Assembly: GCA_943331445.1 (NCBI GenBank)
Contig: CALQLO010000013.1
Coordinates: forward strand, 1-60,217
Direction: 5' to 3'
Source of the DNA: Akkermansia muciniphila
GTDB lineage: Bacteria; Verrucomicrobiota; Verrucomicrobiia; Opitutales; UBA953
DNA: 60,217 nucleotides
The position numbers were made by a program, and so were the translations under genes. Positions 1 through 23,471 of the stretch are shown one piece after another (within the stretch, counting starts at the first letter, position 1; each line of letters starts with the position of its first letter). The notes below the pieces were generated by a model. It saw only the letters and a list, made by a program, of their open reading frames with translations. It was not told where the DNA came from and ran no database searches.

Positions 1-675
1 CCAGCTGGCGGAAGTGGTGCCATCAGCCTTGGTGAAGAAGTTCGTGCCCGTGGTCAGGGTGTCAGAGCACCAAGAGACGTGGCCGTCACCGTAGAGGATA
101 TGGCCGCCTTCCGTACCCCAAACGGAATCAGTAGCCGTAGCACCGGCCGCAGGCCAGTTACCACCGACGCCGAGACCACGGGACCAAGCAATCGGGGCGG
201 TGACATTACCCACCAGGGAGCGGGAGGTCGGCGTGTAGAGATCCCAGCCGGACTTACCCTGCGTGAGGGCGGCGGTGAAGGTGGCATTGATCGCAACCGT
301 GTTACCGGTCTTGGTGATCACGTTCTTCGGGATGGTGGTGATACCATCGGCAGCCGGATCGGCGTCGAGGAACCAGAGCTCGCCAGAATCAAGAGCGGCG
401 CCGTCGGCGAGGATGGCCGCATAACCCGAGAGGGATGTGGTCATGGTCTTGCCAGAAGCCCACGTACCGTTGGCGATGGCCTTATTGCCACCAGCCCAGT
501 TCATGTAAGCCTGGCCGATGGAACGCACCTTATTCAGGGCGCTGTTCTTCTTGGCGGAGCGCATGACGCCCTGCACGCCAGGGAAGAGCACAGCCGCGAG
601 GATGCCAATGATCGCGATAACGGTCAGCAGCTCGATGAGCGTGAAGCCTTTGCGGTTACGAACAGGAGTATTCAT
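1..675 (-). CDS. Type II pseudopilin-like protein, 3' end cut by window edge
   Basis: The reading frame is open from an ATG at 675 to the left edge (225 codons, no stop), so the C-terminus is missing. The N-terminus has the prepilin peptidase site GFTLIELL followed by a hydrophobic helix (TVIAIIGILAAVLFP), the class III signal of pseudopilins and type IV pilins. Near the edge the protein reads GGHILYGDGHVSW. A GDGH motif of this kind is common at the C-terminus of the many pseudopilin-like proteins of Verrucomicrobia and Planctomycetes. The role is probably surface or secretion related; the exact substrate is unknown. Its leader (TATACCCCCACCAAATCT) has no Shine-Dalgarno sequence. The opposite-strand frame over this region has no recognisable features. 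Confidence 0.85.
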   Translation of the reverse strand, partial: MNTPVRNRKGFTLIELLTVIAIIGILAAVLFPGVQGVMRSAKKNSALNKVRSIGQAYMNWAGGNKAIANGTWASGKTMTTSLSGYAAILADGAALDSGELWFLDADPAADGITTIPKNVITKTGNTVAINATFTAALTQGKSGWDLYTPTSRSLVGNVTAPIAWSRGLGVGGNWPAAGATATDSVWGTEGGHILYGDGHVSWCSDTLTTGTNFFTKADGTTSASW

Positions 676-746
676 AGATTTGGTGGGGGTATAGATTAGG
701 ATAGGTGGATTTGTTCCCTTGGAAAGGGTAAAAAGGCTTTTTATGA

Positions 747-2000
747 TTAATATGGCAAAGGGAAGCGGGTGGTCAGTTCGGCCACAATGCCCTGCGCTTC
801 GGCGATTTTCGCAGGATTCTGAGGGTCGGAGAGCACAATCGAGATGGCCTTAGCGATTTGCTTCATTTCCACCTCTTTCATCCCGCGTGAGGTCACGGCG
901 GGGGTGCCCACCCGAATGCCGCTAGCCTGGAAAGGACTACGGGTCTCGTCCGGCACGGTGTTCTTGTTCGTGGTGATATGCGCGGCGTCGAGCGCCAGCT
1001 GCGCATCCTTGCCCGAAACATTGGGGTGGCTCTTACGCAAATCGAGGAGGCTGAGGTGATTATCCGTGCCGCCACTGATCAAACCGAAGCCGAGCTTCAC
1101 GAGCTCATCCGCCAGCGCGCGCGAATTGGCAACGACCTGCTGAGCGTATTCCTTAAATTCAGGGGTCGCACACTGGGCGAAGCAAACCGCCTTGGCCGCG
1201 ATGACATGCTCAAGCGGCCCACCCTGCGCACCCGGGAAGACAGAGGAGTCAATCGCCTTGGCGTGCTCGGCCTTGCACAGAATCAGGCCGCCGCGCGGAC
1301 CGCGCAGGGTCTTGTGCGTTGTGGTGGTGACGAAGTCAGCATACGGCACCGGCGAAGGATGCACACCAGCGGCCACAAGCCCGGCGATGTGGGCAATATC
1401 GGCGAGCAGGAGCGCACCGTTCTCCTTGGCAATCTTGCCGAAACGGGCGAAGTCAATTTCGCGGGCGTAAGCGGAGGCGCCAACCGTGATCATCTTAGGC
1501 TGCTCGCGCTTAGCCATCTCCTCGACTTCGTCGTAGTTGATGCGCCCATCGGCACCGACTCCGTAATGGACGACGGTGTAGAGTTTGCCCGAGAAGTTGG
1601 CCGCATTGCCGTGCGTGAGGTGCCCGCCGTGCGATAGATTCATCGTCAGGATCTTGTCACCTGGCTTGATGGTAGCGAAATAGACCGCGGCATTGGCCTG
1701 ACTGCCGGAGTGCGGCTGGACATTTGCGTGGTCAGCACCGAAAAGCGCCTTGGCGCGATCGATGGCCAGCTGCTCGATCTGGTCGACATTCTCGCAGCCA
1801 CCATACCAGCGCTTACCGGGGTAACCTTCCGCATACTTGTTCGTCAGGATGCTGCCCTGGGCTTCCATGATGGCCGGAAGGGTGAAATTCTCCGAGGCAA
1901 TCAACTCAAGGTGCGTCTGCTGACGCTTGAGCTCGGCCTTGATGAGGCGGTCGATCTCGGGATCAAGTTGCGCGAGAGGGATACGGCGAATGGCGGTCAT
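747..2000 (-). CDS. glyA: Serine hydroxymethyltransferase
   Basis: PLP enzyme that converts serine and tetrahydrofolate to glycine and methylene-tetrahydrofolate in the cytoplasm. It has 417 residues, the usual bacterial length. The N-terminal LIASENF, the glycine-rich GSQAN near 99-103, the HGGHLTHG stretch, and [14 protein letters not shown] with the PLP lysine at about K230 are all present. It is the last gene of a minus-strand run purD, phosphatase, rpiB, glyA. It starts 60 nt after the rpiB stop, and no Shine-Dalgarno motif precedes the ATG. Together with purD it links glycine and one-carbon supply to purine synthesis. Identification is secure. Confidence 0.97.
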
Positions 2001-2060
2001 GGTAGGATTGAGGAAAGGGCAAATCGTGTAAGGAATCGTGGCAACGGCAAATCGGCAGGG

Positions 2061-2510
2061 TTATCCACATGAGGACTCCATCTTGTCCACGCGCCGGGAA
2101 TGGCGTCCTGCTTCGAATTCAGCCGCCAGGAAGGCCTCCGTACAGGCGACGGCGGTAGCGAGGTCGACATACTTGGCCCCGAAGCAGAGGACGTTGGCGT
2201 CATTATGGCGGCGACTCAGGTCAGCCGCATCGACGCTCTGTACCAAAGCGGCCCGGATACCGGCGACTTTATTGGCGGCAATGGAGATGCCGATACCGGT
2301 CGTGCAGACAAGGATACCGAAGCGGGCCCGCCCCGCGACCACATCGGCGCCAACCGCATGGGCGTAATCGGGATAGTCGCACGAGGCTTCGGTCTCCGTG
2401 CCACGGTCAAGAATCGTATGCCCTTTCGCCTTCAAGGCCTCGATCAGACCGCGGCGCAGGGCGAGTCCGCCGTGATCGCTGCCGAATGAAAGAGTGAGCG
2501 GGCTAGTCAT
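2061..2510 (-). CDS. rpiB: Ribose-5-phosphate isomerase B
   Basis: Interconverts ribose 5-phosphate and ribulose 5-phosphate in the pentose phosphate pathway. It has 149 residues, typical of the RpiB/LacAB family. The N-terminal GSDHGGLALR contains the conserved Asp-His pair, and CTTGIGISIAANK carries the catalytic cysteine and the anion-binding loop, followed by RAAL and the RRHNDANVLCFG block. The ATG overlaps the stop of the upstream phosphatase gene by 4 nt, which suggests translational coupling. A ribose isomerase beside purD and glyA fits supply of ribose phosphate and glycine for purines. The last about 10 residues (RVDKMESSCG) are not part of the conserved core. Confidence 0.95.
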   Translation of the reverse strand: MTSPLTLSFGSDHGGLALRRGLIEALKAKGHTILDRGTETEASCDYPDYAHAVGADVVAGRARFGILVCTTGIGISIAANKVAGIRAALVQSVDAADLSRRHNDANVLCFGAKYVDLATAVACTEAFLAAEFEAGRHSRRVDKMESSCG

Positions 2511-2998
2511 CGTGGAAGATTCTGACGCAGAAACTCCACCATCGCGGGAATGGCTTCAACCATGGAATCACGGCAATCCTCGTAATCCCGATAACCACCA
2601 CCGAAGGGATCGACGATGTCCCGGGGGACATCGTCGGGCAAAACATCACGGAGGAGTAAGACCAACTCGGGCAATGGCTCGAAGCGGGCATGCAGGGCGG
2701 CGAGGTGTGACTCGGTCATCCCAAAGATAATGGCGCTCCGATCAACGTCCGCCTGCGTCAGCAGCCGACTCCGGTGCGCGCCCAAGCCCAAGCCGATCCG
2801 CTCCATCGCTTTGACAGAATGAGGCGAAGCCGTCTGGCCTTCCTGAGCCGCCAAGCCAAACGAAGCCACCTTGAGTCGCTCCAGCCCCTGCCCTCTCTTA
2901 CTTAAGGCCGCCATTAACAAGGCTTCGGCCATCGGGCTGCGACAGGTATTTCCTGTGCAGACAAACGTGACGGTGTCTCGCTCGACGGCCATGGGCAC
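2507..2998 (-). CDS. Low-molecular-weight phosphatase, YwlE-like (possible protein-arginine phosphatase)
   Basis: 163-residue protein of the low-molecular-weight tyrosine phosphatase fold. The P-loop CTGNTCRSPMAE begins at C14 (nucleophile), and the general-acid Asp lies in DPFGGG near residue 130. In this family a Thr at the fifth P-loop position (CTGNTCR rather than CxGNICR) marks the YwlE arginine phosphatases; T18 occupies that place here. The gene order phosphatase-rpiB-(x)-glyA is also that of the Bacillus ywlE-ywlF-ywlG-glyA region, which supports the assignment. No McsB-type arginine kinase is visible in the window, so the substrate remains open. M3 (2992) is an alternative start. Overlaps rpiB by 4 nt. 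Confidence 0.85.
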   Translation of the reverse strand: MPMAVERDTVTFVCTGNTCRSPMAEALLMAALSKRGQGLERLKVASFGLAAQEGQTASPHSVKAMERIGLGLGAHRSRLLTQADVDRSAIIFGMTESHLAALHARFEPLPELVLLLRDVLPDDVPRDIVDPFGGGYRDYEDCRDSMVEAIPAMVEFLRQNLPR

Positions 2999-3030
2999 AA
3001 GATGAGGGATATGTCCCTCGGTTCAAGAGT

Positions 3031-4329
3031 TCAAAGCACCCCGTCGCGCCGCAGCTGACGATACCCAATATCTCGACGGTAGTGACACCCCTCGAACTTG
3101 ACCTGCGGAACCACGGAATATGCCCGTTGGGCCGCCTCTTGGAGGGTGGCACCATGGGCCACAACCCCCAGGACACGCCCGCCCGCCGTCACGACCCGAC
3201 CATCGGCCTGGCGTTTAGTACCGCCATGCACGATATCCACCCCCGGCGGAAGGCTTGCGGGCAAAGTAATCACGTCGCCCTTGCGAATCTCCCCAGGATA
3301 GCCACCAGCAGCGAGCACGATGATAATCGTCGCACCCGGCCGGAGCTTCACCGAGGCGGAACGGAATCGCCCCAAGGCGATGTCCTCCATGATCTGCACG
3401 GGGTCTGTCTCCAAGGAAGGCATGAGCACCTGACACTCCGGATCGCCGAAACGCACATTGTATTCCACCACCCGTGGGCCCGTGGCCGTAACCATGATCC
3501 CGACATAAAGCGTGCCCCGGTAATCCATCCCGTCGGCCTTAAGCCCGCGCAATGTCGGCACGATGATTTCCGCGCGCAGCCGACGTTCGACTTCGGGCGT
3601 GACCACGGTGGTCGGCGCATACGCGCCCATGCCGCCCGTATTCAAACCGGTATCGCCTTCGCCTACCCGCTTGTGGTCCTGACTCGGAGGCAACATCAAG
3701 TATTCTTCGCCGCAGACCATCAGCATGATCGAAGCCTCTTCGCCCTGCATAAATTCCTCGATGACGACTTCGTCGCCGGAAGTGCCGAAAATCTTCGCCT
3801 GCATCATATCGCGTAAAGCCGCTTCGGCTTCGGCGTGCGTCGTCGCGATGACGACACCCTTCCCCGCAGCCAACCCGGAGGCCTTGATGACGATCGGTAC
3901 AGGCTGCTGTCGCACATACGCCAACGCCGGCTCGAGTTGACGAAAAGTCTCGGAAGCGGCCGTGGGCACCTTGTGCCGCACCATGAAGTCCTTACTAAAA
4001 GCCTTACTGGCCTCGAGCCGGGCGCCAGCCGCCAAAGGGCCATAAGCGGGGATACCCGCCGCCTCGAGCACGTCTACCACGCCTGCAGCCAACGGGACTT
4101 CCGGGCCGACGATGACAAAGTTAGATCCCGTCCGGCGAACCAGGTCGAGGACGGCGACGGGGTTGGCCGCATCAATCTCCAGGCATTCCGCCTCAAGGGC
4201 CATGCCGCCATTACCCGGTGCCACCCGGACCTTCGCCACGCGCGGACTGCGCAGGCAGGCCTTGAGCAGCGAATGCTCGCGGCCACCTGAGCCAAGGATG
4301 AGAACTTCGAGTTTACCCTGCGTTGCCAT
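3031..4329 (-). CDS. purD: Phosphoribosylamine-glycine ligase
   Basis: ATP-grasp enzyme of purine synthesis that joins phosphoribosylamine and glycine to give GAR. It has 432 residues, full length. The N-terminal GSGGREHSL, the ATP-grasp stretch IVIKASGLAAGKGVVIA, the signature MGAYAP, and RFGDPECQVLMP, which holds the metal ligands, are all visible. It is the first gene of the minus-strand set with the phosphatase, rpiB and glyA; glyA supplies glycine, so the grouping makes metabolic sense. The ATG at 4329 is preceded by CCCTACTGTGAGCC, with no Shine-Dalgarno sequence. tRNA-Leu lies 80 nt upstream on the same strand. Confidence 0.97.
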   Translation of the reverse strand: MATQGKLEVLILGSGGREHSLLKACLRSPRVAKVRVAPGNGGMALEAECLEIDAANPVAVLDLVRRTGSNFVIVGPEVPLAAGVVDVLEAAGIPAYGPLAAGARLEASKAFSKDFMVRHKVPTAASETFRQLEPALAYVRQQPVPIVIKASGLAAGKGVVIATTHAEAEAALRDMMQAKIFGTSGDEVVIEEFMQGEEASIMLMVCGEEYLMLPPSQDHKRVGEGDTGLNTGGMGAYAPTTVVTPEVERRLRAEIIVPTLRGLKADGMDYRGTLYVGIMVTATGPRVVEYNVRFGDPECQVLMPSLETDPVQIMEDIALGRFRSASVKLRPGATIIIVLAAGGYPGEIRKGDVITLPASLPPGVDIVHGGTKRQADGRVVTAGGRVLGVVAHGATLQEAAQRAYSVVPQVKFEGCHYRRDIGYRQLRRDGVL

Positions 4330-4409
4330 GGCTCACAGTAGGGCCGCACCCAGCGAATATGTGAACCAAAAACAGGGCCGGCCCGTTTCCAGGCCGACCC
4401 ATCCTAAAT

Positions 4410-4493
4410 TGGTGCTCAGGCCGGGACTTGAACCCGGACACCTTGCGGCACATGCACCTCAAGCATGCGTGTCTGCCATTCCACCACCTGAGC
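4410..4493 (-). tRNA. tRNA-Leu (anticodon GAG)
   Basis: Class II tRNA with acceptor GCTCAGG (5' end at 4493) pairing with CCTGAGC, discriminator A, and an encoded CCA (4410-4412). The anticodon stem CATGC/GCATG closes the loop TTGAGGT, giving anticodon GAG (plus strand ctc at 4458-4460). A long variable arm (TGCCGCAAGGTG) and a T-arm with GTTCAAGTC are present. GAG reads CUC and CUU leucine codons. Confidence 0.95.
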
Positions 4494-4597
4494 AATAAAG
4501 GAAGGTGCACGCTGGAACACCCGGCGGACGGTGCAAGAAAAAAGCGATTGTGCTGATGCTTGCCAATCGGCCATCTTTCCCAACGCTCATCCCTTCA

Positions 4598-6049
4598 ATG
4601 TCCTCCGACCCGGCCGAAAACAACCCTCCTCAGGAAAAGTCCTTCGAACTGGACCTCTCCTCTCTTGGTTTTGGCCCCAAGTGGGTCAGCGGCCCTTCTG
4701 AGAAGGTAAGCTCCGGCAGCGGTGCCCCCCGCCGTGATGGCGATCGCCCTCGTTTCCGTGATGGCCCGGGCGGCGACCGTCGCGGCCCTCCCCGCGATGG
4801 ACAAAGTCGCGGCCCTCGTCGTGACGGACCCGGTGGTCCTGGCGGCCCCCGCCGCGATGGACCTGGCGGCCCTCGTCGTGACGATCGCCAAGGCGACTCT
4901 CGTGGACCCTCTCGCTGGCAGGACGAAGCACCCGCCTTCCGCCCAGTGGTCGCTAGCGCCTTTTTCCCTGACGACGCCAAATTCGAACTGCTCGGCGGTG
5001 CGATGAAGAAGAGCAAGATGACCTACGAACTTTTCGAGGTCGCCCGTCTCATCCTCGATAAAGAAGATCGTCTCTCCATCGTGGTACGCCATCTCGATGC
5101 GGACACGCGTCCGGACGCACAGCTCGCCGTCTCCATTCCTGACGGCCATCCTTTCCTCACGGAAGCCGAAGCCGTCACGCACGTGATGTCCCGCCACCTC
5201 GACAAGTTCTTTGACGTAGTCGAAGTGGAAGTCGAAGCCCCGAAGGGCTCTTTCCTCATGGTCGCGAAATGCTCGCAGACCGGCAAGTTGCTCGGGGCTC
5301 CGACGCACCATAGCTATCAGCGCAATCTCCGCGAACACCACGCCCGCCATTGCCCCAACGTGCCTTTCGACAGTTTCAAAGGCCGCCTCGAGATGGTCCG
5401 CGAACAGGAGCAAATTGATGCCTGGTTAAAGTCAATGTCCTCGCGCAGCGAATACGCCCCCAAGGATCGCAAGGAAGGCGAACCCGAACGCCTTGAGTCC
5501 CTCGACGCTGCCCGTGGCTTCCTCCAGGCCTTCCGTAAGGACCTCGTGGTCAAGACCCACCCGTGGGTCCGCTTCGCCGGTCGCCTACTCGAAGAGCTCA
5601 ATCCCGGCCCGCTGCGCGATTCCGTCCGCTTCGCCCTCGAACAGCAACGCGCCTTCCCCCTCGATACCGCCAACGGTATTCGTGGCCGCCTCCGCAAGGA
5701 AGGTTTTCACCTTTATAAGAAGGGCTCGAAGGGCATCACCTACGCTTGCTCCGTCCGTCGCCGCTGCCGCGACCCGAAAGCCGCCTTCAGCGATCCGATG
5801 GCCAAGCTCTTCGACGCACTCGACCGCAAGCCGGCCCAACAGGCAAAGGATCTCGTACTCGCCCTCGCCGGCGAGAACGCCGCAGACGCCGCCAAGACGC
5901 AGGTACTCACCGATCTCTCGTTCCTCATCGGCGAAGGCTACATCGCCAATCTCCCGGATGGTCGTCTCTTCGCCCAGCCTATCCTGAGCAGTCAGGCCCA
6001 GGCCAAGGAAGAAGCCGCCAACGACGACTCCACCGAAGAGAGCAAGTAA
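4598..6049 (+). CDS. Arg/Gly-rich N-terminus protein of unknown function
   Basis: About 483 residues from the ATG at 4598 (MSSDPAENN). The frame stays open upstream to 4505, but that part looks non-coding and lies beside the tRNA. Residues about 40-105 are low complexity, with repeated RRDG, GPGG and DRRG units that look like an RNA-binding RGG-type tail. The remainder is well ordered, with charged helices, an EMVREQEQIDAWLKSM segment, and a basic stretch RLRKEGFHLYKKGSKG followed by RRRCRD. No signal peptide or membrane helix is visible, so it is probably cytoplasmic. I do not recognise a named family; nucleic-acid or ribosome binding is a guess from composition. A strong terminator follows at once. 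Confidence 0.75.
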   Translation: MSSDPAENNPPQEKSFELDLSSLGFGPKWVSGPSEKVSSGSGAPRRDGDRPRFRDGPGGDRRGPPRDGQSRGPRRDGPGGPGGPRRDGPGGPRRDDRQGDSRGPSRWQDEAPAFRPVVASAFFPDDAKFELLGGAMKKSKMTYELFEVARLILDKEDRLSIVVRHLDADTRPDAQLAVSIPDGHPFLTEAEAVTHVMSRHLDKFFDVVEVEVEAPKGSFLMVAKCSQTGKLLGAPTHHSYQRNLREHHARHCPNVPFDSFKGRLEMVREQEQIDAWLKSMSSRSEYAPKDRKEGEPERLESLDAARGFLQAFRKDLVVKTHPWVRFAGRLLEELNPGPLRDSVRFALEQQRAFPLDTANGIRGRLRKEGFHLYKKGSKGITYACSVRRRCRDPKAAFSDPMAKLFDALDRKPAQQAKDLVLALAGENAADAAKTQVLTDLSFLIGEGYIANLPDGRLFAQPILSSQAQAKEEAANDDSTEESK

Positions 6050-21767: not shown

Positions 21768-22763
21768 TTAGCGGCGCATACTCGGCTCATTCACCAGAAC
21801 TTTGGATTTCTCCGTCCGCCCAGTCGCCAAAGCCATTGCCTTGGAAATTCGCCCCATGAGTTCGTAGCGTCGGGCATACAAAGCCCGCTTATTCGGCTTA
21901 ATCTCGCTCCGCTCCTTTCGCCGGGGCGAAAGGGGAAGTTCATACCATCCGGCCTCAATGGGCGTGCCTCCGGATTCAATCCAAAGCTGATCGTAACTGA
22001 AACTTATCCGATTCCAGCGCGTCTTGATGAGGTGTTTCACATGACTCATGTGCGCGGCGTCTCCCACGCCCAGGATGCGCACGACGCCGCGCGAAGCCAG
22101 ATACCACTGCAGGGCCATCACGGCGAGGGCCTTGGGTCGCAAGCCATGCATCGCTTTGGTGGAAGATTTAATCGTGGCCGGAGAAGCCCCGTCGCCACCC
22201 TGCACCCCACCCACATAGGCAACTAATCCTGCGGCCGTCTCTTCGTACGAAAATGCGATCGAGGCGAGCTCGCCGCCATGACGCTCGCAGACGATGGAAA
22301 GGGAGAGTTCGCCCTCCCGCTTAAATCTCTGCTGGTGATTAATTTCAATGACGACGTCGCCCTCGTCCTCACCCAGCGCCTCCATTGCGAGCACCAAGTT
22401 CGCCCGGCGGACGAAGACATCACGCTCGAGCCCCGCCTCATTGCGGATTCGGCCGTAGGTTTCTTTCAGCACTTTAAGGCGCCGCGAGGCCGTCCAATCC
22501 TTATGGATGTAACCGCGCAACGGCTTATACCAGACCAACCGGTCGGCATCACGAAAGGCTTCGTTACCGGGACTATTCAAAAAACGCACCCACGCACTAA
22601 AAGTCGTGTGTTCGGCGAAGGCGTAAATTGATCTCCAGAAGCTGGTACGGTTCCGGTAGTAGGAAGACCTTTCTGTCGCCATGAGCCGCTTGGTCGTCTG
22701 CCAACAGAAACCGAAACAAGCCAGGCGCCCAGTAGGACCCATTCCTTCACTTATTTGTGACAT
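21768..22763 (-). CDS. DUF535 (VirK/YbjX family) protein
   Basis: About 331 residues from the ATG at 22763 (MSQISEGMG). The frame continues to an ATG at 22802 and a TTG at 22817, but that part is AT-rich and looks like promoter. The core matches DUF535: the block GLRPKALAVMALQWYLASRGVVRILGV (split here as GLRPKALAVMALQWYLA and SRGVVRILGV), then HMSHVKHL, RISFSYDQLWIESGG, and a basic YARRYELM near the end. Family members include VirK of Shigella and YbjX; the biochemical role is not known. The stretch 22764-22925 upstream holds no gene and is AT-rich. Confidence 0.8.
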   Translation of the reverse strand: MSQISEGMGPTGRLACFGFCWQTTKRLMATERSSYYRNRTSFWRSIYAFAEHTTFSAWVRFLNSPGNEAFRDADRLVWYKPLRGYIHKDWTASRRLKVLKETYGRIRNEAGLERDVFVRRANLVLAMEALGEDEGDVVIEINHQQRFKREGELSLSIVCERHGGELASIAFSYEETAAGLVAYVGGVQGGDGASPATIKSSTKAMHGLRPKALAVMALQWYLASRGVVRILGVGDAAHMSHVKHLIKTRWNRISFSYDQLWIESGGTPIEAGWYELPLSPRRKERSEIKPNKRALYARRYELMGRISKAMALATGRTEKSKVLVNEPSMRR

Positions 22764-22925
22764 CCTCGAAATAAACCACCCTGTTTGGCATAAATAAAAC
22801 ATAAAGTGTCGTTTCAACGATAGTTTTTACGTTGTCCATGTACAAATAACCCCAAAAAAAGCCAAATTACCCTAGATTACTTCGCCCAAGAGCAGATTGG
22901 CTAATCCGTGAGACAAGTAGATCCA

Positions 22926-23277
22926 GGAAAGGAAGGGATTGATTCCGCTGCGCTTCAGGCCTCCGGCCCGATGCCTGCGGCATCGCCTGCTCGGCCTTGC
23001 GGCCTTCGCCGAACCCGCGGGTTCTCATCCCTCGGGCGGGCTTCTTTCCAGCTCCTTAACTTAACCGGAAAGGTAAGTCTTTGGGTGGGAATTAAATTGG
23101 CGGAGAGGAAGGGATTGATTCCGCTGCGCTTCAGGCCTCCGGCCCGATGCCTGCGGCATCGCCTGCTCGGCCTTGCGGCCTTCGCCGAACCCGCGGGTCC
23201 TCATCCCTCGGGCGGGCTTCTTTCCAGCTCCTTAACTTAACCGGAAAGGTAAGTCTTTGGGTGGGAATTAAATTGGC
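22926..23277 (-). repeat. Two tandem 176-bp repeats carrying copies of the tRNA-Ser 3' end
   Basis: Unit 1 is 22926-23101 and unit 2 is 23102-23277, at an exact offset of 176. Counted from 22931, the two copies differ at one base (23023 t, 23199 c). The 3' terminal 19 nt of tRNA-Ser, including CCA (23274-23292), recurs exactly at 23098-23116, and a 15-nt degenerate form is at 22926-22940. On the tRNA strand each unit can form GGCC-GCAA-GGCC, CGATGCC-GCA-GGCATCG and GGCC-GGA-GGCC hairpins. The single change falls in the GAACC/GGTTC stem and keeps pairing as G-U. Since 176 is not a multiple of three, the copies are not in one reading frame. The layout resembles the rtT repeats after E. coli tyrT. 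Confidence 0.9.
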
Positions 23278-23361
23278 GGAGAGGAAGGGATTCGAACCCC
23301 CGGTACCTTGCGGTACGCCTGATTTCAAGTCAGGTGCAATCGACCACTCTGCCACCTCTCC
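23274..23361 (-). tRNA. tRNA-Ser (anticodon UGA)
   Basis: Class II tRNA. Acceptor GGAGAGG (5' end 23361) pairs with CCTCTCC, discriminator G, encoded CCA at 23274-23276. Anticodon stem CCTGA/TCAGG closes the loop CTTGAAA, giving anticodon TGA. The long variable arm GTACCGCAAGGTAC and a T-arm with GGGTTCGAATCCC are present. Its 3' 19 nt is repeated downstream in the 176-bp units. Confidence 0.96.
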
Positions 23362-23471
23362 GTAAAGAGGAGTCAAATCAGCCTAGGGTCTTCCCTCAAG
23401 CCCTTTCGGAGTCTTACCCTTGGGCTTTCTCCTGCTTTCCCATCGGCCGAGAAAATGTTCATGCCTGCCCG

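Follow-up and report, generated by a model that had tools for sequence, protein, structure and literature searches.

On the minus strand of the window, the 60,217-nt stretch of DNA analysed here, a tRNA-Ser(UGA) gene is followed by a 64-nt linker, a first unit, an identical linker and a second unit. The preliminary description of this DNA had reported two 176-bp tandem units behind this tRNA gene, and the sequence bears out that layout. TRF, which lists two arrays in the window, gives this one as copies at 22926-23101 and 23102-23277, with a score of 720 and 98% matches. Counted from 22926, the copies differ at two sites, 22929/23105 and 23023/23199; counted from 22931, they differ by the single base that had been described. 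The features are as follows, with scores from R1, the first of two models that we built (see below).

23274..23361, minus: tRNA-Ser(UGA), the host gene, CCA encoded (ARAGORN; Rfam tRNA)
23274..23292, minus: tRNA positions 58-76, original of the tail (exact 19-nt match)
23210..23273, minus: linker 1, 64 nt, from the CCA to the P1 5' strand
23098..23212, minus: unit 1 (P1 5' strand, hairpins, tail copy); R1 103.3 bits, unit 1 belonging to the R1 training set
23203..23209, minus: unit 1 P1 5' strand GAGGGAT; its partner is ATCCCTT in the tail copy, with one G-U
23165..23185, minus: unit 1 tandem-GA hairpin with a GCAA loop
23145..23161, minus: unit 1 hairpin with a GCA triloop
23134..23144, minus: unit 1 hairpin with a GGA triloop
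23098..23116, minus: unit 1 tail, an exact copy of tRNA positions 58-76
23034..23097, minus: linker 2, same sequence as linker 1
22922..23036, minus: unit 2; R1 91.2 bits, outside the R1 training set
23027..23033, minus: unit 2 P1 5' strand
22926..22940, minus: unit 2 tail, P1-pairing part kept, acceptor/CCA part gone (AATCCCTTCCTTTCC)

As had been described, 23098-23116 is an exact repeat of the 19 nt at 23274-23292, and 22926-22940 holds a degenerate 15-nt copy of the tail with one difference. The short hairpins noted on the tRNA strand (GCAA tetraloop, GCA triloop) are also present. The copy difference at 23023/23199 (GAGAACC vs GAGGACC, tRNA strand) had been placed in a predicted stem, and it does face GGGTTCG, with which it forms A-U or G-U; the stem is a possible one, predicted when the second copy is folded. 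Further downstream, also on the minus strand, lies a gene for a DUF535 protein (21768-22817, minus), the nearest window ORF that was tested for an integrase.

The Rfam family RtT (RF00391) matches both window copies on the tRNA strand over model positions 1-130 of 130, with 26.6 bits at 22925-23046 and 26.3 bits at 23098-23223 (unit 1) and E-values of 0.0038 and 0.0046. Neither window copy reaches the RtT gathering cut-off of 45 bits, which was reached in 3 of 20 other loci scanned, with tRNA-Gln or tRNA-Tyr as hosts. Rfam matches to sX4, ar14 and a plastid model were rejected as below cut-off; in two of them, sX4 and the plastid one, there is overlap with the tRNA itself. The sub-threshold match to sX4, a proteobacterial sRNA, spans tRNA-Ser and its trailer (23199-23371, minus); similar sX4 matches occur at further tRNA-Ser genes of the same genome.

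Relatives of the unit and their host genes

The assembly that contains the window (83 contigs) carries relatives behind tRNA-Ser(CGA) on contig C2 and tRNA-Ser(GGA) on contig C8. A further unit, on C55, has a tRNA-Ser(GCT) tail and scores 34.3 bits against RtT, above the window copies; because the tRNA-Ser(GCT) gene stands at the very end of contig C23, we infer the link between the two. In all four cases the 5' strand fits the unit's own tail: GAGGGAU/AUCCCUU for UGA, GAAGGGAU/AUCCCUUC for CGA, GGAGGGAU/AUCCCUCC for GGA and GGAUGGGAU/AUCCCAUCC for GCT. Short contigs of this genome also hold att-like copies of the tRNA-Ser(GCT) 3' end, at 4508-4536 and 6707-6735 of C55 (L028) and at 2078-2104 of C48 (L029), and one protein encoded on C55 is of the restriction/helicase kind (Mrr_cat_2, ResIII). 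Probably these are pieces of a genomic island at tRNA-Ser(GCT) that the assembly split into short contigs.

Across the class, RF00391 alone matched 8 of 188 genomes at E <= 0.1, none above the cut-off. It was too narrow for this purpose, so we built our own models. Ten units went into R1, eight from the window's class and two from E. coli; the 7-bp P1 forms in 10 of 10 of these sequences, and three of its positions are changed on both sides in some. With R1, matches at E <= 0.1 came from 32 of 38 relatives; at E <= 0.01, they came from 56 of the 286 genomes searched in the class. Weak matches to tRNA genes are counted in both tallies. Numerous matches scoring roughly 20-31 bits resemble tRNA-Ser genes or their 3' ends and were set aside. 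Matches of at least 35 bits occur in 32 of the 286 genomes (counted from the list) and make up the unit set, from which we omitted L055, a contig-end fragment, and L110 and L124, which had been fetched twice.

An exact pattern scan of the GTDB collection returned 94 stretches; among the matches listed (80 of the 94 stretches), a tRNA precedes 49 occurrences by no more than 700 nt, and the tail of 43 agrees at 16 or more of 19 positions. Pattern matches without an upstream tRNA were discarded as chance, eight of the genomes concerned having no match at E <= 0.01 to R2, our second model, built from 108 units. The four pattern matches in viral contigs, 0 of them with an upstream tRNA, were also taken as chance. 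At E <= 0.001, R2 matched 60 of 274 genomes from the class of an Oxalobacteraceae MAG, 5 of 247 from the class of a Sphingobacterium, 11 of 240 from the class of a Bradyrhizobium, 2 of 249 from the phylum of a Eubacteriales MAG and 7 of 247 from the phylum of a Deltaproteobacteria MAG. Among 24 loci inspected from the Bradyrhizobium, Eubacteriales and Deltaproteobacteria sets (the listed L329 and L341 being left out), three (L326, L339, L342) are apparent tRNA 3' ends and were rejected as units. The preliminary description had held that the lack of a transcript beyond the tRNA 3' end, together with the lack of a related unit at any other tRNA or in any other genome, would favour an ordinary repeat; we found related units both at other tRNA genes and in other genomes.

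We examined 160 matches for their hosts. Eight had been fetched twice, leaving 152 distinct units, of which 128 follow a host gene by no more than 900 nt: Ser 83, Gln 15, Tyr 10, Glu 5, His 4, Leu 3, Met 3, Pro 3, Arg 1 and tmRNA 1, the preponderance of Ser being partly due to models trained on Ser units. The Bradyrhizobium class adds Gly, Trp and Asn as hosts, the Asn tail agreeing at only 14 of 19 positions. The tmRNA host is that of Sphingobacterium arenae (L261); its 3' end recurs in the unit, which by eye is flanked on both sides by a terminator-like hairpin with a T run. Four units behind a tRNA-Gln(UUG) (L272) alternate, by eye, as A-B-A'-B', a higher-order repeat.

Tail copies, P1 and internal hairpins

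Among the 128 distinct units with a host, the tail agrees with its own host at 19 of 19 positions in 83, at 18 in 18 and at 17 in 10. In the first set of 90, the mean match was 17.98 with the own host, compared with 11.61 with tails of other isotypes. The CCA is not encoded in some Bacteroidota tRNA genes. At 13 distinct Bacteroidota loci with a later tail copy, seven unit tails lack CCA and continue like the gene, two lack CCA and continue differently, and one locus has CCA in both gene and tail. We conclude that copying of the tail from the gene is the rule. The stricter idea, that the tail always comes from the gene and never from mature tRNA, is weakened by three Sphingobacterium tRNA-Ser(UGA) loci (L148, L166, L205), where the first tail reads CCGCCA and the gene CCGCAG; these tails leave room for copying from mature tRNA, for selection or for chance.

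Mismatches are unevenly placed within the tail. Of 107 distinct tails compared, 25 carry a mismatch, with 11 mismatches at positions 58-65 and 92 at positions 66-76, a skew away from the P1 part that is partly hit selection, since the searches favour an intact P1.

The P1 5' strand (GGGAUGAG-type) pairs with tail positions 59-65 and varies with the host tRNA. In 43 units, the P1 pairs outside the search pattern averaged 2.63 of 4 with the own tail, compared with 1.76 (sd 0.115) with permuted tails, and 0 of 5000 permutations were as high; with duplicates removed (35 units), the values were 2.66 and 1.73. Among 107 non-redundant P1s, positions 59-65 are Watson-Crick in 81-95%, with several pair types at positions 63-65, and Watson-Crick pairing falls to only 53% at position 66 and 41% at position 67. 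Alignment A2 has 96.7% of P1 cells paired, with changes on both sides in five of seven pairs; its whole-structure covariation score is 0.442, against 0.119 when shuffled and at most 0.085 when slid, in an alignment that had been fitted to the model. At T-stem G-U sites (15 cases), the unit base is the Watson-Crick partner in 10, the tRNA's own base in two and another base in three, so the P1 5' strand does not simply duplicate the T-stem.

The extent of P1 is variable. By eye, pairing in some Gln-tRNA units spans the T-stem and much of the acceptor strand, and the Glu units of one genome (G035; L040, L042) have no evident P1; P1 is limited to 2 to 5 contiguous pairs in several units with Gln, His and Tyr hosts. 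Single non-Watson-Crick pairs in P1 are G-U in 8 cases, A-C in 3 and other in 13. Over positions 59-65 of the 107 P1s there are 23 G-U and 18 A-C pairs, and we regard these counts as a weak RNA signature.

Inside P1, 145 cores contain 332 triloops with stems of at least 4 pairs. GNA accounts for 193 of these, TNC (which is GNA read on the opposite strand) for 3 and other loops for 136; GNA triloops closed by C-G number 186. A tandem-GA hairpin occurs in 87 of the 145 cores, whereas shuffled cores give 24.4 and reverse complements 1 of 145, and the window units have it as CGAAGGCCGCAAGGCCGAG, with one additional A. Tandem GA in RtT has been reported by Rivas (PMC7657543, PMC8250186). From the strand-specific GNA loops and the tandem-GA motif, we conclude that the tRNA strand is the folded strand; we are less certain that it folds as RNA rather than DNA, since sense and antisense fold energies are close and the single non-Watson-Crick P1 pairs include few G-U. 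Near the 5' end, a conserved motif, GGGATGAGAACC, reads ATGAGAA in 93 of 150 units and resembles the T-arm reverse complement (GGGATTCGAACC), and GTTCG lies further inside 121 of the 150. The fold energy of the repeat in the window is unremarkable (z of -1.28 on the tRNA strand and -0.12 on the opposite strand), and for this reason the case for structure rests on comparison with relatives. Over the collected units, z is -1.51 sense and -1.16 antisense, the sense value being lower in 61 of 110. We rejected single-unit fold energy as evidence because it is uninformative.

Transcription, turnover and competing explanations

An intrinsic-terminator-like site lies in 24 of 101 first linkers, compared with 3 of 101 when each linker was shuffled once. 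A second such site follows the unit in 18 of those 24 loci, and 25 of 101 units are followed by one. A stricter scan found sites in 7 of 105 linkers, and no terminator-like site was found in the window linker. Given the 24 terminator-bearing linkers, many units would lie outside the terminated tRNA transcript, and release from the normal tRNA transcript cannot be general. Such release would fit the window and E. coli, and other loci would need read-through. The preliminary description had inferred, as one of two readings, a processed structured RNA. The structured part of that claim is supported by covariation and strand-specific motifs; processing from the normal tRNA transcript would be doubtful at about a quarter of loci, where a terminator-like site precedes the unit.

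Taken together, the best reading of these sequences is that the unit is probably a structured RNA of the RtT class, closed by the tail of its host tRNA. An RtT-type unit is a structured element behind a tRNA or tmRNA gene, on the same strand, that ends in the 3' end of that gene. We think it rather likely that the selected form is RNA, made together with the tRNA where there is no terminator, as in the window, or by read-through elsewhere. This RNA would, on balance, be freed by the tRNA 3'-processing pathway, with P1 and the tail mimicking the T-stem with the acceptor 3' strand. More tentatively, the RNA might compete for some factor specific to tRNA 3' ends. Whole units would be gained or lost, with the tRNA left intact, when tail copies recombine.

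Such gain and loss can be followed in E. coli, where copy number shifts by exact whole units. The E. coli RtT unit matched 4680 of 5426 E. coli genomes, at 1 to 9 places each; megablast detected nothing in the other 746, which suggests that the element is dispensable. In six E. coli loci that we inspected, the number of units ranges from 0 to 7. LF82 has one unit, another strain has seven, and strain AH50 has both tyrosine tRNA genes and zero units. In AH50, the sequence after the first CCA is the one that follows the tyrT-tyrV unit in MG1655, and the sequence after the second CCA is closely similar to that behind the last MG1655 unit; the AH50 sites are precise empty sites. Two more E. coli strains are unit-free, but their downstream DNA differs. 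Core identity, calculated from 46 of 159 cores from 11 genomes, is 0.95 within an array, 0.69 between tRNAs of one genome and 0.61 between genomes, for shared and different isotypes alike. Because identity is higher within genomes, units appear to spread between tRNA genes within a lineage, adapting tail and P1, and gene conversion within genomes could contribute to this similarity.

These observations could also describe a mobile DNA cassette, in which the sense strand would fold as single-stranded DNA, P1 would re-create the double-stranded tRNA 3' end and a recombinase supplied in trans would insert the unit. The greater likeness of units within one genome (0.69) than to same-isotype units elsewhere (0.61), the terminator-like sites between tRNA and unit and the precise empty sites in E. 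coli all agree with it. GNA triloops closed by C-G, which are 186 of the 332 here, are unusually stable in DNA. The E. coli unit also matched 29 of 72,556 records of a plasmid collection, and in a separate search 18 of its 9980 places in E. coli genomes were on plasmid records. However, all 29 records are typed non-mobilizable and several are chromosome-sized, the window array had zero matches in the plasmid and phage collections, and the only phage record that matched the E. coli unit is labelled Salmonella. The unit has no visible recombinase, its tail begins at A58 rather than at or before T54 as in att-like copies, a unit integrating with a foreign tail would disrupt the host tRNA, and the likeness within genomes could also come from gene conversion. 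RtT RNA, moreover, exists in E. coli and relatives. We consider this cassette improbable. The same grade applies to a tRNA-generic selfish cassette that would move among tRNA and tmRNA genes, always taking a new tail, with the GGGAUGAGAACC segment, which is close to the T-arm reverse complement (GGGAUUCGAACC), as its guide. If that idea were true, the guide would recognise tRNA 3' ends and the host tRNA would never be broken.

Neutral upkeep is an unlikely explanation as well. Unequal recombination would hold the tail identical to the tRNA, template switching within the imperfect palindrome would preserve the complementarity of the P1 5' strand to the tail, and the unit would have no function. 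This would suit the 0.95 identity of tandem copies at one tRNA, the range of 0 to 7 units among the six E. coli loci, the 175-bp rtT VNTR tabulated for Salmonella Paratyphi A and Typhi (PMC2658671) and the mainly Watson-Crick corrections in P1. It leaves unexplained a core that recurs across phyla with strand-specific GNA loops and the tandem-GA motif, and also why tail mismatches spare the P1 part (11 vs 92, a partly search-biased count).

We also considered whether the unit mainly provides the tRNA operon with a back-up transcription terminator or a 3'-processing spacer, with the RNA as a by-product. Enterobacterial rtT-like elements are among BIME attenuator candidates (PMC2965389), rttR is listed as REP-containing (PMC12306157), and terminator-like sites stand behind 25 of 101 units. 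However, 24 of 101 loci already have a terminator-like site ahead of the unit, and termination needs no co-variation with the host tRNA, which makes this role quite unlikely.

The 3' ends of tRNAs are integrase targets, and integrase elements occur at the same ends. In five of 12 extended loci (L305, L309, L310, L315, L316), an att-like copy before the unit starts at or before T54, unlike the unit tails, which start at A58; the other seven have no exact second copy besides the tRNA itself. Two loci (L309, L315) have an insert between tRNA and unit. In L315 (G033:C73:28100-48000), Phage_integrase and G2P-like replication genes lie in the region 409-5380 between tRNA-Tyr and the unit, possibly a filamentous prophage. 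Because of such inserts, some units stand apart from any tRNA; in extended loci without one, no cause of the separation was seen. At L080, a short ORF with a GIY-YIG domain (1109-1378) lies between tRNA-Ser(GGA) and the unit, and we dropped it as a candidate tied to units because it has no relative in the fetched loci. The other reading in the preliminary description was a scar of repeated integration. A scar of this kind, left by tyrosine-integrase elements, or a minimal remnant of them, could appeal to the L315 element and to the att-like tRNA-Ser(GCT) ends on two short contigs of the window's genome, but it is very improbable because att-like copies and tails start at different positions in those five loci, the direct repeat of the unit does not qualify as an att core, the unit sits beyond the att-like copy like a resident, and its core is conserved with no integrase inside.

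Since the 1991 rtT paper, RtT has reportedly been a little-understood product of one E. coli operon. This curiosity, known mainly from E. coli, now seems to be widespread, with units following many different tRNA genes, and one tmRNA gene, in several phyla. If one element follows many tRNAs and tmRNA and co-evolves with them, its function becomes approachable by comparison and simple deletions; the hosts, the empty sites, the copy-number variants and a compensatory-mutation test are at hand for that purpose.

Comparison with known systems

E. coli MG1655 has four units, every one ending in AATCCTTCCCCCACCACCA. Behind tyrV, the CCA of the first unit is precisely where the annotated RttR ncRNA stops, and RefSeq notes of RtT that it is 'processed from tyrT transcript'. 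The window and E. coli RtT/rttR have in common the site behind a tRNA, tandem units, P1 with the tail, internal GNA hairpins and a 19-nt tRNA tail starting at A58; the repeat spacing is 176 bp in the window and 178 bp between the MG1655 tails behind tyrV. They differ in host tRNA, phylum and linker, and the window copies score 26 bits against a cut-off of 45. R1, trained on units from both the window's class and E. coli, gives both high scores. The likeness to tyrT/rtT drawn in the preliminary description thus holds up: the two sets of units share one architecture and fit one model, and RtT matches the window copies at full length and below cut-off. By predicted architecture, though not by Rfam score, the window element is of the RtT kind.

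Tyrosine-integrase islands also use tRNA 3' ends and carry direct repeats of them. They differ in that they bear genes and, in the loci examined here, their att-like copies start at or before T54 and they sit between tRNA and unit. To our knowledge, the rrA, rrB and rrF RNAs have no link to tRNA tails, and we liken them to the units by description, not by sequence. They are made in E. coli rRNA operons by read-through between dual terminators (PMC8144298), and such read-through of a first terminator is what terminator-preceded units would require.

RtT-family RNAs have been seen in other bacteria. An RtT sRNA of Thioalkalivibrio is reported to be upregulated in the cold (PMC8092127), and Arrc20 and Arrc21 of Actinobacillus pleuropneumoniae gave Northern signals (PMC4986893). 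Like our units, these Pasteurellaceae RNAs are RtT at non-Tyr tRNA genes, and theirs were detected as RNA; they are placed upstream of Asn and Lys tRNA genes (PMC4986893). Compared by description only, the passages available from that source mention neither a host-tail rule nor P1 co-variation (PMC4986893). In a literature largely without subscription journals, we found no paper stating a general tRNA-tail class. Taken together, we conclude that RtT at non-Tyr tRNAs was already known, from Pasteurellaceae (PMC4986893), and that the new elements are the breadth of hosts and phyla, the rule that each tail is that of its own host, the co-variation of P1 with the tail, and the tmRNA case.
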